64,000 nt of DNA. Origin: Phyllobacterium sp. OV277 (GTDB lineage: Bacteria > Pseudomonadota > Alphaproteobacteria > Rhizobiales > Rhizobiaceae). The translations under genes were made by a program, and so were the position numbers. A model generated the notes under the pieces. It did not search any database. It was not told where the DNA came from and saw only the letters and a list, made by a program, of their open reading frames with translations. Shown one piece after another: positions 23,658 to 35,873 of this stretch (within the stretch, counting starts at the first letter, position 1; each line of letters starts with the position of its first letter). The stretch is from contig NZ_FNIY01000003.1 in assembly GCF_900104355.1 (NCBI RefSeq), positions 186,001 through 250,000 on the forward strand, written 5' to 3'.

Positions 23658-24821
23658 TTAATCAGGCTTGCGGGCGTATCCCACAGCCTCTCTCTTCTCG
23701 TCATCGCTTAGGAATGGCGCAGCAGACATACGCTGCCACAATGCATCACGCTCCATGGACAGCCCATCAATGCGATCGAAATCCGGTTCCAACCGTAGCC
23801 GTTCGCCATAAACAGGACCGAGCCAATTCCCGATCGCCTTGGCCGTACGCGTGATCAGCGGAATCACCGCCAGACGATAAAATGCACGATTGGCTTCGGC
23901 ATAATTGGCATAGGTGTTGTCACCGGGAATGCCGAGCAGCATGGGCGGAATACCGAAGGCCAAAGCAATATCGCGGCTGGCAGCATTTTTGGCAGCAATG
24001 AAGTCCATATCACGCGGCGACAGGCCCATGGATTTCCAGTCGAGCCCGCCTTCGAGCAATAAAGGGCGTCCCGCCTTGGCTGCGCCGGTATACCCCTCTT
24101 CCAGTTCCGTCTTCAGCCTGTCGAACTGAGCTTCGGTCAAACGTGCCGTATCTGCAGGCGCATAAACCAGCGCGCCTGATGGACGCGCGGAATTATCGAG
24201 CAGCGCCTTGTTCCAGACACCGGACGCGTTGTGAATGTCGAGCGCCATCAGGGCCGCTTCAAGCGGTGCAAAGCCATAATGATCATCAAGCGGATGAAAC
24301 AGCTTGAGATGCAGCGCCTGACCGTCATCAAGCCCAATGGTTCGCTTGCTGGCACCAACGCCATAGCCCAAAGCCACCGGCCATCCATTATCGCCAGTGA
24401 TGACGCGCACGCGATCCGGGCGCAGCAGATGCAATTCGGCTGCACCATTCCCGGCGCTAACCCGCTCGATATAGGCGTTGCCAGAAAGCAGAAGATGACC
24501 GTACAGCGTTTCGAACAGGCTTGCTCCATCGGCGCCGCGATGTGGGTCTGACAACAGATCAAGCAATGGATGCTGCGTGTGTTCCGTCCGCCCTTCGTAG
24601 AGTAGCCAGGGGGTTGCAGCGGCAGCTTCCGCCAAAAGGCGCACACACCGGTAGACAATCGGGTTACGCATAAATCCTTGGCGCGACAGACCGGTGTATC
24701 CACTCTGCGACCAGCGTGCCTCCCGGTCAAATTGCAGCGCTACAAATCCTTGCGCGGCCTTGGTGTTAAGACGCGGATGTTCATTCGCAGCGCGCCAGCG
24801 CCACGGCCAATGAAGTGCCAT
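23658..24821 (-). CDS. GTA portal protein (gp3-type)
   Basis: A 387-residue HK97-family portal, the dodecamer through which DNA enters and leaves the capsid. Motifs: NPIVYRCVRLLAEAAAATPWLLYEG, LLSGNAYIERVSAGNG, PLDDHYGFAPLEAALMALDIHNASGVWNKALLDNSARPSG, and FGIPPMLLGIPGDNTYANYAEANRAFYRLAVIPLI. The length is normal for the family. It starts MALHWPWRWRA at 24821. Between it and the terminase lies about 800 nt holding the duplicated structured element. Confidence 0.95.
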   Translation of the reverse strand: MALHWPWRWRAANEHPRLNTKAAQGFVALQFDREARWSQSGYTGLSRQGFMRNPIVYRCVRLLAEAAAATPWLLYEGRTEHTQHPLLDLLSDPHRGADGASLFETLYGHLLLSGNAYIERVSAGNGAAELHLLRPDRVRVITGDNGWPVALGYGVGASKRTIGLDDGQALHLKLFHPLDDHYGFAPLEAALMALDIHNASGVWNKALLDNSARPSGALVYAPADTARLTEAQFDRLKTELEEGYTGAAKAGRPLLLEGGLDWKSMGLSPRDMDFIAAKNAASRDIALAFGIPPMLLGIPGDNTYANYAEANRAFYRLAVIPLITRTAKAIGNWLGPVYGERLRLEPDFDRIDGLSMERDALWQRMSAAPFLSDDEKREAVGYARKPD

Positions 24822-24892: not shown

Positions 24893-25220
24893 CGTTTCAA
24901 CCCTGCATTCGTGGACCTATTCGAAAAACCCGGCAAAGTATTGAGCGAGAACGAGTTTTGCGAGCGAAGCAGTAAACACCGAGCCAGCCGGTGTATCGGG
25001 ACGATGGGCCTCCCGACCACAGCAATGGCCTTGCTCGCAAACTTGGAGGTAAATGATGTGGTATCTGCCACTTAACATTACCTTAGAAATGAAAAGAACC
25101 CGGACTAGCTGGACGCTGGTCATCCGGGTTCAATACATCATCTAAGAAAAGGGGCGCGGGCGAAAGCTCGCGTCCCACTCCAAGACCTTACTATAATTTC
25201 CCGGTCTTTCCAAGCAACCC
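24893..25220 (+). ncRNA. Structured element, copy A (leader fold, 29-aa ORF, GAAA-capped hairpin)
   Basis: The first of two homologous units at a constant 398-nt offset. Copy A has a 9-bp outer helix (24957-24965 with 25033-25041) enclosing two hairpins: ACACCG/CGGTGT (24976-24994) and TCGGGA/TCCCGA (24996-25016). A ribosome binding site GGAGGT (25045-25050) and a 29-codon ORF follow, with an 8-bp helix inside the ORF (25097-25104 with 25123-25130). It ends with an 11-bp hairpin capped by GAAA (25151-25176). G·T pairs in that hairpin and the GNRA loop favour the plus strand, opposite to the GTA genes. Three helices keep pairing by compensatory change relative to copy B. No known RNA family was recognised. 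Outer limits are approximate. Confidence 0.7.
25056..25145 (+). CDS. 29-residue microprotein, copy A (MWYLPL family)
   Basis: This ORF starts at ATG 25056, 5 nt after a near-perfect GGAGGT; another in-frame ATG lies directly before it but too close to the site. The peptide begins MWYLPLNITLEMK and ends LVIRVQYII. It alternates hydrophobic and polar residues like beta strands and is not a clear membrane helix. Compared with copy B, 16 of 29 codons are identical, 7 differ synonymously and 6 change the residue (N/S, R/K, T/Q, Q/N, Y/F, I/F). That pattern argues for translation. It is antisense to the GTA transcript. Function unknown; a type I toxin or small phage cargo protein are possibilities I cannot test. 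Confidence 0.6.
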   Translation: MWYLPLNITLEMKRTRTSWTLVIRVQYII

Positions 25221-25291
25221 AGAGTGGACACCCCATTCGGGAATTGAGTTCCCCGGTCTCAAGACAACCCAGTTCCGCCAGAGCGAACGCA

Positions 25292-25618
25292 ATTACAACT
25301 CTGCCTTCGTGGACCTGTTCGAAAAACCCGGCAAAGTATTGAGCGAGAACGAGTTTTGAGAGCGAAGCAGCACACACCGAGCCAGCCGGTGTATCGGGAC
25401 GATAGGCCTCCCGACCACAGCAATGGCCTTGCTCTCAAACTTGGAGGTGAATGATGTGGTATCTACCACTTAGCATCACCCTGGAAATGAAAAAGACCCG
25501 GACCAGCTGGCAGCTCGTCATCCGGGTCAATTTCATATTCTAGGAAAAGGGGTGCGGGCGAAAGCTCGCATCCCACTCCAAGACCTTACATTAATCTCTC
25601 CACTTTTCCAAGCAACCC
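25292..25618 (+). ncRNA. Structured element, copy B (leader fold, 29-aa ORF, GAAA-capped hairpin)
   Basis: The second unit, co-linear with copy A without gaps over the paired regions. The outer helix is 25355-25363 with 25431-25439; here an A–T pair (25359–25435) replaces the C–G pair of copy A. The helix inside the ORF pairs 25495-25502 with 25521-25528, with G–C in place of A–T at its base. The 3' hairpin (25549-25574) has T–A (25553–25570) in place of C–G and keeps the GAAA loop. The two inner leader hairpins are unchanged in their stems. The unit ends about 5 nt before the terminase stop. Confidence 0.7.
25454..25543 (+). CDS. 29-residue microprotein, copy B (MWYLPL family)
   Basis: ATG 25454 lies 5 nt after GGAGGT (25443-25448) and the frame ends at TAG 25543. 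The peptide begins MWYLPLSITLEMKKTRTSW and ends LVIRVNFIF, parallel to copy A in every position. Keeping start, length, stop position and most residues while third bases drift is the main evidence that it is a gene. It has no similarity that I recognise to neighbouring GTA proteins. Confidence 0.6.
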   Translation: MWYLPLSITLEMKKTRTSWQLVIRVNFIF

Positions 25619-25623
25619 GAGGT

Positions 25624-26922
25624 TTAGCCCACAACGCGAATGCGTGGGCTTGTTTCTTTTTTCAGCATCAGTTCGCTCAGAGCCCAGACCAACGCATCAA
25701 CACGGTCGGGCGAACGTCCACTCGACAATCCTGCATGAGTGAAATCACACATTTCATCCTCCAGCGCGGGAAAGCGGCCGGCGTGCCGAACCTTGCCCTG
25801 TTCATATAATGCGGCGATGGGCTCAGCCCGCAGCGCTTTGCCGCGATTGGCCCGCACGCCACGAACTGGCACAGTGTTATCCTCAGCAGCGATAACAGCG
25901 GCAACCATATCGCCGCCCTGGTTTATCTCAGCCACGATCAGATCGGCCTCCAGCCTGTAGAACAGCTGGGTGGAACGTTTGGCCCATTGAATAGGTTTGG
26001 CCGGACCAAAACTCTCATCGGCGAGTATCCACCCCATACCTTCCGCATCGACCCCTGCAGCAACGATCCCGCAAGCGTCGGACTTTCGCGTTGCGCTGGC
26101 TGGCGGATCAATGGCGACGATAATCCTTTGCATTTCCGGGATGTCGGCACGATAAATCTCTTCCATCATCGTCCGCGACCACAGGGCATCGCGGCGCTCC
26201 TCAATCAGTTCGCCATCTAGCTCCTGTCGTCCCAGCCGCGTTCCACCGTAAAGCTTTTCCATATGCGCAAGAAAGCTCTGGGCCAGATTGGCATTATTCT
26301 CGGCGGTGCGCATCCGGCTCACCAAAACAGTTCTGTCGTTCATCAAAGCCTTCAGCGAGGCGGTCGGCTTTGGTGTTGTTGTTACAACCTGCTTCGGATT
26401 GTCGCCAAGCCGCAAACCAAATTGCAGCATGTCCCAGGTTTCCTGCGCATGTTTCCATTTCCCCAGCTCATCACACCAAGCCGCGCCAAATTGCGGTCCG
26501 CGCAAACTATCCGGATCTTCGGATGAAAACATCGCCGCCGTCGCGCCATTGGCCCAGATGAGCCGCCGGCGCGTTGCCTCAAAGCGCGGGCGTTCAGTCC
26601 GCGACACCGCCATGATGCCGGACGGCCCGTCAATCATAACTTCGCGCACATCCGCAAGGGTTTCACCAACCAGTGCGATGTTGAGCGCGGCTGGCGATTT
26701 GAATGGCGGAAATCCATGCACAATGCTGTTGACCCACTCGGCTCCGGCGCGGGTCTTGCCGGAACCCCGCCCGCCAAGGATCAGCCACGTGCGCCAGTCA
26801 TGATATGGCGGCTGTTGACTGGCCCGTCCCTGAAATATCCATTCATTGGTCAAAGCCTGTATCTGCATGGGGCTGAGATTGTTGGCGCACCAGTTGATCA
26901 GCTCGGCATAGGGCAAGTTCAT
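25624..26922 (-). CDS. GTA terminase large subunit (gp2-type)
   Basis: A 432-residue packaging motor. The Walker A motif is LILGGRGSGKTRAGAEW, followed by an ATPase core with FGAAWCDELGKWKHAQETWDML (Walker B region with acidic DE) and a coupling motif VVTTTPKPTASL. The nuclease half has VAIDPPASATRKSDACGIV and ends with the HAGLSSGRSPDRVDALVWALSELML region typical of GTA terminases. ATG 26922 (MNLPYAEL) has GGAAG upstream; a start 12 nt earlier is possible. The 5' end overlaps the small subunit gene by 80 nt, unusually long. RcGTA packages random host DNA headfuls. Confidence 0.93.
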   Translation of the reverse strand: MNLPYAELINWCANNLSPMQIQALTNEWIFQGRASQQPPYHDWRTWLILGGRGSGKTRAGAEWVNSIVHGFPPFKSPAALNIALVGETLADVREVMIDGPSGIMAVSRTERPRFEATRRRLIWANGATAAMFSSEDPDSLRGPQFGAAWCDELGKWKHAQETWDMLQFGLRLGDNPKQVVTTTPKPTASLKALMNDRTVLVSRMRTAENNANLAQSFLAHMEKLYGGTRLGRQELDGELIEERRDALWSRTMMEEIYRADIPEMQRIIVAIDPPASATRKSDACGIVAAGVDAEGMGWILADESFGPAKPIQWAKRSTQLFYRLEADLIVAEINQGGDMVAAVIAAEDNTVPVRGVRANRGKALRAEPIAALYEQGKVRHAGRFPALEDEMCDFTHAGLSSGRSPDRVDALVWALSELMLKKETSPRIRVVG

Positions 26923-27337
26923 GGATTCTTCCATCAATGCGAACCAGCACTTCACGCAATTCATCCGGACCCAACATCACGATGGAGCGTTGCTGTTCGG
27001 TCCGCTTCTGCTGCATTTCACTGAGCCGGTCCATGGTCCGTGCCAGTTGCGCCAACGCATCCAGCCGCGTCTTGGCTGACGCCGTTTCATCGCCTAGTTG
27101 CAACTGACCCAGCTCCTTGCGCAAAAGCTCCATGAGATCGCGAATAAGGGTAAGTTCACTATTTTGACATTCGAGATATTGCAGCGTCAGCCCGTCATCG
27201 ATGACAAGCAGCTCAAATTCCGCTTTGCTGACCCCAAATACCGGCGCCATTTCATCCGTTGAAATTCCGTAATGCCGACAGAGATCATAGGAATGCCGTC
27301 GACAGAGCGATTGCTCGCCGCGCGTCATCATTGTCAT
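26843..27337 (-). CDS. GTA terminase small subunit-like protein (gp1-type)
   Basis: A 164-residue DNA-binding partner of the terminase. The N-terminal part, YDLCRHYGISTDEMAPVFGVSKAEFELLV, looks like a helix-turn-helix, followed by a helical segment ELTLIRDLMELLRKELGQLQ and KTRLDALAQLARTMDRLSEMQQKRTE, which would oligomerise. It is the first gene after the promoter. AAGGATTATCC precedes ATG 27337. The last 80 nt are shared with the terminase large subunit in another frame. Confidence 0.82.
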   Translation of the reverse strand: MTMMTRGEQSLCRRHSYDLCRHYGISTDEMAPVFGVSKAEFELLVIDDGLTLQYLECQNSELTLIRDLMELLRKELGQLQLGDETASAKTRLDALAQLARTMDRLSEMQQKRTEQQRSIVMLGPDELREVLVRIDGRIHELALCRADQLVRQQSQPHADTGFDQ

Positions 27338-33332: not shown

Positions 33333-35873
33333 CTAGAACCGGATAGTCAGATCGGCCTTGAGGGCATTGTCATGGCTGCGGTTGGAAAACTGGCCGGTAT
33401 AGCTGACGCCGATAGTGGTGGCACTGCCGATATCAAAGTCGAGGCCAGCCTCGATGAGCGCCGTATCCCGCGCCACGGGCAGACCCTTGATCGAGAAGGC
33501 CCTGCCATGGGCAAACGCCATGGACGCGTCAGGTGTTACATCGCCAAAGGCATGGTTCCACCCGGCCATGCCGCGGGCAGTCAGCATGGTCTTTTCGCTT
33601 AAAGCGACACTGTAGGAGGTTCGCAGCCCAAGGGTGGTCGTGGTCAGATCCGTGGTGGCCGATGCGCCTGACAGGGCCGCAATGCCGCCGGTTTCCTTGA
33701 ACCCGTCAGTTTTGAGGTGGGTATAGGCTGCGTCGGCAAAGGGTTCGAATGTCACGTAAGGTGTATCAATGCGATAGGCAGCCTCGCCAAACACCTGCAC
33801 CGAATTGGCGGCGTAGGATGCGCTGTCGGTTTCAGCAGTATGGCCAAAGCGGACTTTGCGGTTCGTATCGATGGTGTGATGGGCAAGACCGGCGCCGAAG
33901 CTCAAGGTCAGCGCATCCATCTTCGTGCCGCCATAGACACCCAGCTGATAGCTATCGGCGGAGGCGGAAGACTGGGCTCCATGCAGCGATGTGTTGCCAT
34001 AGCCAGCAAGCACGCCCAGCCGCCATTTTTCCGCAATCCTGCCGTCCACGCCGGTGACAATGCCACCGGTGTTTCGGCTATAGGCGGCGGCATTGCCATC
34101 GCTCTGCGCATGGCCCCATGAACCATAGGCATGGCCCCACAAATCCGTGGTGGGAACAGCCGAATTGAACCCAACCGCCGGGCCTTTGGCCGTGCGTTCC
34201 GTCAGCGCAACATTATAGCCTGTGGCATCGGTGAATGCAGCCCTGATCCGGCTATTGGCCGCATCGCGGATAAAGCGGCCATCTTCGGCCAGAACGTTGC
34301 GCGCCGAGGCGTAAATTTCGCCCGAAGGCGCATCGTAATTCAAAACCTCAACTCTGCTGGAGAAGAGCACGGCGCCCAGCAGCGGATCGCCAAGATCAAG
34401 CTGCTTTATGGCTTCGCCTACACTCTTCTGGTTGGGTGAGGTTGCATCCGCGAGAACAATATTCTTCACCTTTGCCTCGATGCGCTGCATTTTCGACTGG
34501 TCTGTCTCCGGCTTTGCACCGCCATCCGGGTGGCCGCCGGGTTGCGGCTGCTCATCCGTCGTCCCTTGCAAAGGCTTGCCGGTGCCCGGATCAATCAAAT
34601 CAAAGCCAACAGCCACGGCACTGCCATCGGCGGCATAGGTCAGGGAGGGAGAGATATAATTATATTGCGGGGTGATGGTTTCAAAAGCGCCGTTGATGCG
34701 CTTGTCCGATGTCAAAATCGTATAGTGGCCGAGAAACAAATCATGCATCTGCTGTGCACTCATGGGGGCGTCCTGACCTGCAAACCGCAGGTTTACGCGG
34801 CCGCCCGAAAGCGTGACATCGCCGGCAACGGTCAAACGATCCGAACGGCTTTTGTCCGGCGCAATTTCGACATCAAAAATACTGCCCCTGTCGAAGGTCG
34901 CATCACCTGTTACATGCAGCGTGCCGACCGGATTTCCCGGAGCAACGGTGCCACCGGCCAGCGCTCTCAGATCGCGCACCGTGCCATTGCCTAGAAGCGA
35001 ACCGCCGGGGCCGACGGCAACGTCCCGGCTGTTTCCCTCAATGAAGGCCGTGCCACCATTGACAAGAACATCGCGGCTCACACCGCCGGAACGAACACTC
35101 AATTGCGCGCCGTTATTGACCTGAATATCGCGGCTGATGCCATTAATGAATGCGCCTCCGTTGTCCATCAGCACATTTTCAACTGCCCCTTTGGCACCAA
35201 CATTCAACCACCCACCACCGATCAAGGCATTCCCGGCCTTTCCATCCACAAATGCGTTGCCGCCATTCATGGCGAGAACCCCGATCCGGCCCTCTTCCCT
35301 GACATGTAAACTCCCGCCAGTGTTGACAATCGTATTGCCGCTTAGTCCATGAATGAAGGCATAGCCGCCATCCACGACCAGATCATGCGTTACGCCATGT
35401 TCGCCGACAGTTAAAATTGCGCCTTTCCCAACCGCAACATTGCCGGTCTCGGCGTCGACCCAGGCAGCTCCATTATTCGGCGTCAGTTCACCGAGCATAC
35501 CCGCACTGTGGACGAGCACATGGCCATAACCCTCAACGTTGACGGTGCCATCTGGGACGTCCAACAGTTTGAGCCCTCCGCCGAACCTGACATTCTCAAA
35601 CATTCTCATTTCCTCGGCGGCCAACGGGCCATCCGTGTCAGCAGAACGTTGAGACCCGATGAGCCCCCTATCCTCAGCGGCTTCCATTGATTGCCGCCCC
35701 GCATCGTTGCCGGGATGTGCCGCGTCCGATGACGGGATCACCTGCGCCTTTGCCGCGCTGAAACCCGCGGTTACGATCAATGCGGCGCAGACGCTTTTCA
35801 ACAGCTGATTGCGTAAGGTTGCAGTAAGGTTGTGACGTGCGGATACACCCGCAGTTTTGGCGTGAAAATACAT
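33333..35873 (-). CDS. Autotransporter with repeat passenger and outer-membrane beta-barrel
   Basis: An 846-residue type V secreted protein. An extended signal (residues 1-43) precedes a passenger of about 380 residues with repeated short units (VNGGTAFIEG, NGGAFINGISRD, NGGNAFVDG), the pattern of a beta-helix as in AIDA/pertactin-type proteins. A Pro/Gly/Asp-rich linker near 440-460 leads to the barrel (about 580-846), which begins near TTDLWGHAYGSWGHAQSDGNA and ends with the aromatic terminus LTIRF. It may serve in adhesion or aggregation. A possible weak terminator (33290-33312) follows the stop. Confidence 0.92.
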   Translation of the reverse strand: MYFHAKTAGVSARHNLTATLRNQLLKSVCAALIVTAGFSAAKAQVIPSSDAAHPGNDAGRQSMEAAEDRGLIGSQRSADTDGPLAAEEMRMFENVRFGGGLKLLDVPDGTVNVEGYGHVLVHSAGMLGELTPNNGAAWVDAETGNVAVGKGAILTVGEHGVTHDLVVDGGYAFIHGLSGNTIVNTGGSLHVREEGRIGVLAMNGGNAFVDGKAGNALIGGGWLNVGAKGAVENVLMDNGGAFINGISRDIQVNNGAQLSVRSGGVSRDVLVNGGTAFIEGNSRDVAVGPGGSLLGNGTVRDLRALAGGTVAPGNPVGTLHVTGDATFDRGSIFDVEIAPDKSRSDRLTVAGDVTLSGGRVNLRFAGQDAPMSAQQMHDLFLGHYTILTSDKRINGAFETITPQYNYISPSLTYAADGSAVAVGFDLIDPGTGKPLQGTTDEQPQPGGHPDGGAKPETDQSKMQRIEAKVKNIVLADATSPNQKSVGEAIKQLDLGDPLLGAVLFSSRVEVLNYDAPSGEIYASARNVLAEDGRFIRDAANSRIRAAFTDATGYNVALTERTAKGPAVGFNSAVPTTDLWGHAYGSWGHAQSDGNAAAYSRNTGGIVTGVDGRIAEKWRLGVLAGYGNTSLHGAQSSASADSYQLGVYGGTKMDALTLSFGAGLAHHTIDTNRKVRFGHTAETDSASYAANSVQVFGEAAYRIDTPYVTFEPFADAAYTHLKTDGFKETGGIAALSGASATTDLTTTTLGLRTSYSVALSEKTMLTARGMAGWNHAFGDVTPDASMAFAHGRAFSIKGLPVARDTALIEAGLDFDIGSATTIGVSYTGQFSNRSHDNALKADLTIRF

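Follow-up and report, generated by a model that had tools for sequence, protein, structure and literature searches.

The window considered here is the whole 64-kb stretch of DNA that was analysed, from Phyllobacterium sp. OV277. It contains two closely related units that lie between the terL and portal genes of a GTA cluster, on the strand opposite to both. The units follow each other at a gapless offset of 398 nt, and are identical at 203 of 229 bases over positions 24953-25181 (288 of 328 over 24893-25220). The features of the locus, with the basis for each in brackets, are:

23658-24821 (−), GTA portal gene, flank (ORF; Pfam Phage_portal)
24898-24915 (+), unit 1 conserved upstream box CAACCCTGCATTCG (alignment of 38 units; box seen in Phyllobacterium units)
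24957-25041 (+), unit 1 leader, with P1 enclosing P2, P3 and the loop-loop contact (family covariation; homologous unit 2 leader fold)
24957-24965 paired with 25033-25041 (+), unit 1 outer helix P1
25042-25049 (+), unit 1 SD CTTGGAGG, predicted to pair with 25178-25184 (family test; unit 2 fold)
25056-25145 (+), unit 1 29-aa ORF MWYLPLNITLEMKRTRTSWTLVIRVQYII, stop included (family ORF test)
25090-25181 (−), unit 1 predicted antisense RNA of about 90 nt, putative ends (promoter and terminator signals)
25096-25131 (−), unit 1 predicted antisense intrinsic terminator GAACCCGGA...TCCGGGTTCTTTT, inside the ORF (minus-strand sequence)
25151-25176 (+), unit 1 3' hairpin, 11 bp with a GAAA loop (covariation, helix 7)
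25178-25184 (+), unit 1 anti-SD CTCCAAG, 3' end (family SD test; unit 2 fold)
25185-25213 (−), unit 1 predicted antisense promoter TTGGAA-N17-TAAGGT, weak −10 (family promoter test; local sequence)
25296-25313 (+), unit 2 upstream box (alignment of 38 units)
25355-25439 (+), unit 2 leader (family covariation; fold)
25440-25447 (+), unit 2 SD CTTGGAGG (fold; sequence)
25454-25543 (+), unit 2 29-aa ORF MWYLPLSITLEMKKTRTSWQLVIRVNFIF, stop included
25488-25579 (−), unit 2 predicted antisense RNA, putative ends (promoter and terminator signals)
25549-25574 (+), unit 2 3' hairpin (covariation; fold)
25576-25582 (+), unit 2 anti-SD CTCCAAG (fold)
25583-25611 (−), unit 2 predicted antisense promoter TTGGAA-N17-TAAGGT, weak −10 (promoter test; sequence)
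25624-26964 (−), GTA terminase large subunit gene (terL), flank (ORF; Pfam Terminase_6N/6C)

A first-pass annotation of this DNA had described the offset, three compensatory base-pair changes between the copies and a 29-codon ORF in each. Recomputation gave the same offset and the same changes (CG to AT, AT to GC and CG to TA from unit 1 to unit 2). The ORFs, which start at 25056 and 25454, have 16 identical, 7 synonymous and 6 replaced codons, as first counted. Unit 2 folds with −107.1 kcal/mol (z = −7.26 against 200 dinucleotide shuffles), and the duplicated-unit pattern is far from chance. The plus strand is antisense to the GTA operon, as had been noted; the ORF map and the Pfam assignments of the flanking genes agree on this. 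The unit had been termed an RNA element with a microprotein inside the GTA cluster. Both components are present and this pair does lie between terL and portal, but the term is too narrow: each unit looks like a module of an mRNA and an antisense RNA, and the family is not specific to this GTA cluster. New here are a predicted promoter and terminator on the minus strand, an SD that pairs with the mRNA 3' end, the loop-loop contact, and the recognition of a multicopy, widespread family.

Elsewhere in the window, an 846-aa ORF (33333-35873, −) has glycine-rich repeats and a beta-barrel-like C-terminus, and appears autotransporter-like by eye.

Distribution of the family and database searches

In the genome of Phyllobacterium sp. 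OV277 the double unit matches eight places and the single unit ten. The search model also matches ten; this is a covariance model (R1) that has only 11 pairs because MAFFT shifted P1. All 20 Phyllobacterium genomes contain the element, with 1 to 12 matches per genome. Across the order, where stricter filters were used and weak matches are lost, it was found in 27 of 397 genomes and 17 of 138 genera. The one positive genome among 387 sampled from the class is the window's own. A pattern scan of named genomes gave at least 115 stretches, and a viral scan gave 47. Profile search places the element in 208 of the 212 loci collected. The remaining loci, L125, L144, L159 and L198 (Pseudomonas, a betaproteobacterium and Stutzerimonas), are without the element by this search and were set aside as chance matches. 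Five positive loci (L105, L187, L188, L199 and L212) fall outside the order, in Maricaulis and Alkalicaulis.

Matches also occur in 42 plasmid and 5 phage records, 12 of these 47 having been inspected. Close to the left end of Rhizobium phage V1VFA-S (MT778838.1, L042; about 118 kb) there is a full-length unit, at 449-729, and the element is also present on IMG/VR contigs of 110-121 kb (L063, L068, L076, L081 and L091). One of the phage records, MW462191.1 (L043), bears the label Bacteriophage sp. but looks bacterial: it has a GTA cluster, and its LysE and penicillin-binding genes are those beside the window's GTA, in the same order.

The set used for comparison was reduced from 248 matches to 210 full-length units and then to 189 distinct units, which were aligned. 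From these, 119 representatives have mutual identity below 85%.

The first reading knew of no described family, and the library searches bear this out. Rfam gave no match at the gathering score in the 64-kb window. For five homologous loci it gave only three weak matches (E up to 5), all outside the element, and together these results rule out a known RNA family. No family match was found in Pfam, NCBIfam or PHROGs with three members searched against each, nor in PADLOC with 60 members, and a profile search of solved structures returned only ribosomal protein S5 (E 1.8). In the open-licence literature we found no description of the family, nor of an antisense-RNA-controlled peptide in a GTA. 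The family is so far unnamed, and occurs on chromosomes, plasmids and phages, and in GTA clusters of rhizobia and relatives.

Folded mRNA, peptide and predicted antisense RNA

Across the 189 distinct units the leader comprises three helices (outer P1 and hairpins P2 and P3) and a covarying loop-loop contact, formed by the P3 loop and a GGCC-type segment 5' of the 3' strand of P1. At least eight of the nine P1 pairs are present in 153 of 188 units, a count without shuffle control that allows wobbles and takes the best of several registers. After the leader come the SD, the ORF (itself a long hairpin), the 11-bp hairpin and CACTCCA. Homologs with conserved pairing, proposed at first pass as the test of the element, were found. 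In 70 aligned units of the 189, 38 of the 51 pairs are changed on both sides. Two-sided changed cells number 423 against 138 ± 15 in shuffles, and none of 500 shuffles reaches 423; slid versions of the structure give 66-126. The loop contact covaries at both ends (65-95, GC 59 and AU 8; 68-92, CG 39 and UA 19). A P4 hairpin, tried in place of this contact, shows no two-sided change. RNAalifold gives −143.8 kcal/mol for the plus strand and −131.1 for the minus strand. Among the 119 representatives there are 769 G-U cells versus 313 A-C cells, a count biased by the scoring of plus-strand predictions, which favours G-U on that strand.

The single-sequence fold of unit 2 closes the ORF domain by pairing CUUGGAG with a CUCCAAG some 130 nt further on. 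Among the representatives, bases flanking the SD and the 3' CTCC pair in 94, 75 and 48 of 119 at three positions, above the maxima of 5000 shuffles (72, 51 and 44); a fourth position is unconvincing (25 of 119, p 0.045). We also compared disjoint sister pairs, which used 175 of the 189 units. Where sisters differ at the lock, both sides are compensated in 5 of 27, 15 of 52 and 6 of 55 pairs, against null means of 0.013, 0.021 and 0.012 and maxima of 0.078, 0.078 and 0.090, from shuffles that leave some shared ancestry. The majority of differing pairs (22 of 27, 37 of 52 and 49 of 55) are without two-sided compensation. By this comparison, compensation is well in excess of the null at positions one and two, and exceeds it only slightly at position three. 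The fold and the family pairing both point to an SD sequestered by the mRNA 3' end, as in systems of the aapA/IsoA type.

The ORF is intact in 170 of the 189 units (110 of the 119 representatives). It encodes 29 aa in 131 of the 170 and 28 aa in 35, so that 166 of 170 specify, on one strand, a short protein within the range usual for type I toxins (<60 aa). The majority pattern is M-W-x-x-P-L-S-I-T-L-x-x-K-K/R-T-R-T-S/G-W-x-x-x-x-R-V-x-F, with hydrophobic residues alternating at positions 8, 10 and 12 and at 21, 23, 25 and 27. AlphaFold2, with a natural 30-aa member as query and 37 further rows (38 in total), predicts a beta-hairpin with strands at 4-14 and 19-28 (mean pLDDT 80, pTM 0.32). In 86 representatives the in-frame pN/pS is 0.69, versus 0.85 and 1.48 in the other frames; we attribute this mild value to the double constraint. 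Selection on both RNA and peptide, as first proposed from the two copies, is supported by the 189 distinct homologous units. In 19 units the ORF is broken or atypical. Two of these (L007 and L211) failed the motif test only for a changed turn, and the others are frameshifted, shortened or read past the usual stop.

Each unit is followed on its right by a conserved sigma70-like promoter signal on the minus strand, CTTG(A/G)A-N16-18-(C)TATAT. We took CTTGAC/CTATAT to be the rhizobial promoter consensus. At least 8 of 12 matches to CTTGAC-N16-18-CTATAT are present in 98 of 118 units versus 222 of 1180 mononucleotide shuffles. Spacing is mostly 17 or 16 nt, and the commonest distances from the site to the following GGAG are 4, 8 and 7 nt. 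A sense promoter sought with the same consensus does not score above shuffles (mean 7.35 versus 7.28). The window units have a weak antisense −10 (TAAGGT), and in unit 2 the best score of the scan (6 of 12) is at another site than TTGGAA-N17-TAAGGT. The −10 is described as poorly conserved in PMC3616915.

The predicted minus-strand RNA would start with a 5' hairpin and end with GAACCCGGA...TCCGGGTTCTTTT, a candidate terminator inside the ORF, giving an antisense RNA of about 90 nt. The predicted RNAs of the two window units fold with z = −5.16 and −3.47. Two columns flanking the near-invariant terminator core have A-C 50 and G-U 2, against the plus-strand G-U excess, which is the pattern that a need for minus-strand folding at this place would produce. 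Promoter scores do not differ between units with intact ORFs (mean 8.69, n = 170) and broken ones (8.56, n = 18). A score of at least 8 is kept in 15 of 18 scorable units with broken or atypical ORFs, and thus the antisense promoter is not lost together with the ORF.

Settings in GTA clusters, plasmids and phages

Loci with GTA genes account for 78 element rows. Between gp14 and gp15 there are 54 copies (45 loci), and 18 rows lie between terL and portal, several of them covering one place; GTA clusters are over-represented among the IMG/VR loci included here, making this a biased sample. All 72 placed rows are antiparallel to the operon, and 6 near contig ends are unplaced. By Pfam, gp14 is an NlpC/P60 protein and gp15 has a GTA TIM-barrel domain; the numbering follows the RcGTA scheme. 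In the genus of Neorhizobium vignae, the element was found in 53 of 57 genomes and gp14 in 46. In 38 of these 46 the element is at most 1 kb from gp14, each time downstream and antiparallel.

The Phyllobacterium terL-portal site was examined in 9 of 20 genomes. It is filled in G000, G012, G013, G008 and G002, and empty (49-68 nt) in G005, G011 and G017. In G016 the spacer (L251, G016:C1:347300-353800) contains a decayed remnant, judged by eye. Much of its leader is still there, but it has neither an ORF nor an antisense terminator, nor an antisense −10 that can be recognised, all three having gone together.

Tandem arrays occur at GTA sites, with four units spaced 306 nt apart at G987:C4:952024-953037 and three spaced 389-398 nt apart at G994:C19:298008-298890. 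The GTA cluster of L255 (G002:C1:592000-604800) has prohead-protease matches at four separate positions in the interval from portal to capsid, which points to a duplicated or inserted segment.

The family and order samples led us to reject a general linkage between the element and GTA clusters. In the family sample the element is present in 34 of 161 genomes, gp14 in 109 and both in 27, and the element is less than 10 kb from gp14 only in the window's own genome (8.7 and 9.1 kb). The order sample has 26 further genomes with the element. A GTA-like capsid match is present in 21 of them, and in no case does the element lie within 100 kb of it on the same contig, as judged by eye and with some cases possibly hidden by contig breaks. 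GTA linkage is lineage-specific.

In several inspected plasmid records, copies adjoin genes of psiB, DUF932, DUF736, methyltransferase or ParB type. In all ten annotated plasmid and phage loci inspected (one is a phage), the element and the gene upstream of it point the same way; this count leaves out L043, the GTA contig, and L047, which is without annotation. This orientation is the reverse of that in GTA clusters. On one Agrobacterium plasmid (L040, 3903-4106) the annotation places a hypothetical protein, QCM13735.1, over part of the unit; the other inspected plasmid loci that have annotation show no feature on it. Plasmid copy-control leader-peptide systems couple a downstream rep gene to the leader peptide. 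Such a system was rejected here, as the downstream genes vary among the loci inspected and several are on the other strand.

A type I-like reading and its alternatives

We consider it probable that each unit is a module of a new type I-like toxin-antitoxin (TA) family. This reading is favoured because the parts match the published logic of aapA/IsoA. That the element is multicopy, in tandem, and on plasmids and phages also speaks for it. Weighing against it are the sense promoter that scores no better than shuffles, the weak antisense −10 of the window units, the mild pN/pS, the promoter scores kept by units with broken ORFs, the many sister pairs without compensation, the reversed orientation on plasmids and phage, and a peptide unlike the alpha-helical membrane peptides that type I toxins typically are (PMC8167048). 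The mRNA fold, SD locking, the conserved peptide, and the antisense promoter and terminator signals are supported by the sequence comparisons above. The plus strand would yield an mRNA of about 230 nt for a cationic, amphipathic beta-hairpin peptide of 28-29 aa. The complete mRNA would be folded shut, with the leader as its own domain, the CTCCAAG 3' end on the SD CTTGGAG, and the ORF in a hairpin. Starting at its own promoter, the antisense RNA would run to the terminator inside the ORF; its target would be the 3' hairpin together with the last two thirds of the ORF, and the duplex would lead to decay or silencing. If the mRNA 3' end were removed, or a short-lived antisense RNA lost, the peptide would be translated and the cell harmed. 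We infer both transcripts and their ends, 3' trimming, action through an RNA duplex, and toxicity. We do not claim membership in type I TA, as toxicity and both RNAs are predicted and the peptide fold is atypical. A small hydrophobic transmembrane toxin is 'typically', not strictly, defining for type I, as worded in part of PMC8167048; the peptide here is a predicted amphipathic beta-hairpin.

The alternative that survives best, to which we give clearly less weight, is a non-toxic microprotein under antisense control. It would bind the membrane or a partner and tune GTA, conjugation or phage development, with RNA folding merely holding the peptide dose low. The peptide is conserved without a typical toxin signature and is modelled as a beta-hairpin; it adjoins gp14 in 38 of 46 GTA clusters of one genus, and is near DNA-transfer or plasmid-upkeep genes on several plasmids. 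However, one partner is not what the numerous copies at unrelated sites and the tandem arrays would lead us to expect, and a peptide that does no harm would hardly seem to warrant several translational locks.

A non-autonomous mobile repeat (MITE/REP-like), with RNA and ORF as by-products of spreading, would fit the multicopy, patchy distribution, the empty terL-portal sites beside filled ones, and a short GGGTTG seen by eye near both ends of GTA copies. We regard this as improbable: several families of the order have retained the peptide, the covarying helices, the SD lock and the promoter, and different genomes within a genus have occupied sites in common. In the GTA copies, inspection by eye showed neither terminal inverted repeats nor clear target duplications. 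The conserved minus-strand promoter and terminator signals could belong to a trans-acting sRNA, the plus-strand ORF and fold being incidental, but the excess of G-U, the locked SD and the conserved peptide all argue for an mRNA on the plus strand and leave this very little credence. Equally far-fetched is a structured strand that acts as single-stranded DNA in conjugation or packaging, on the model of the Frpo promoter: plasmid copies are near psiB-, DUF932- and DUF736-type genes, but chromosomal and GTA copies exist, and the drift to G-U rather than A-C, in a count biased by plus-strand prediction, suggests pairing at the RNA level.

Returning to the type I-like module, its antisense promoter and terminator run in line with the operon in GTA clusters. 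The antiparallel setting may spare the cell read-through toxin mRNA, or operon transcription may add antidote. It is conceivable, although we think it unlikely, that the module, settled at two sites of the GTA late operon, protects rhizobial GTA clusters as an addiction or surveillance device built on an RNA-locked beta-hairpin toxin. Transcription of the intact cluster would then add antidote, and deletion or disruption of the cluster would free the peptide. Such a device, if true, would help explain the persistence of costly GTAs.

The family is common in parts of Alphaproteobacteria, a class from which we know of few type I TA systems; we found none in rhizobia in the open-licence literature. 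If the type I-like reading is true, we know of no earlier beta-hairpin type I toxin, and type I control would gain from this family a peptide fold and a leader domain that are both new to it. What benefit keeps GTAs is described as an open question in part of a 2024 review (PMC11841831). The near-fixed place of the element in GTA clusters of one genus bears on this question, and a guard role is now testable.

Among known systems, SmelA075 and SmelA099 are described, in part of PMC3927594, as multicopy Rhizobiales sRNA families with 3-4 hairpins and CCUCCUCCC loops. The element likewise has several copies per genome and occurs in Rhizobiales; it differs in architecture, and is set apart by their description, not by sequence. 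In hok/sok the SD is sequestered by a downstream anti-SD (part of PMC6733600), and hokW-sokW aids phage release (part of PMC8621323). SD sequestration by a downstream anti-SD, an antisense RNA (predicted here), and plasmid and phage carriage are shared with hok/sok. Unlike hok/sok, the predicted rhizobial antisense RNA covers the 3' part of the ORF and not the leader, no mok-like overlapping frame was noticed, and there is no match in Rfam or the protein libraries.

The closest analogue, likened by layout and not by sequence, is aapA/IsoA of Epsilonproteobacteria (Helicobacter pylori). The relevant part of PMC6733600 describes a 30-aa peptide, a 225-nt mRNA with its SD locked by the mRNA 3' end, an 80-nt antisense RNA opposite the ORF, and several copies per genome. 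Shared with the rhizobial family are the peptide of about 30 aa, the mRNA of about 230 nt, an antisense RNA of 80-90 nt (predicted here) opposite the ORF, the locking of the SD by the mRNA 3' end, and several copies per genome. The rhizobial family is unlike aapA/IsoA in its predicted beta-hairpin, in a separate leader domain of about 85 nt with a loop-loop contact, and in belonging to Alphaproteobacteria.
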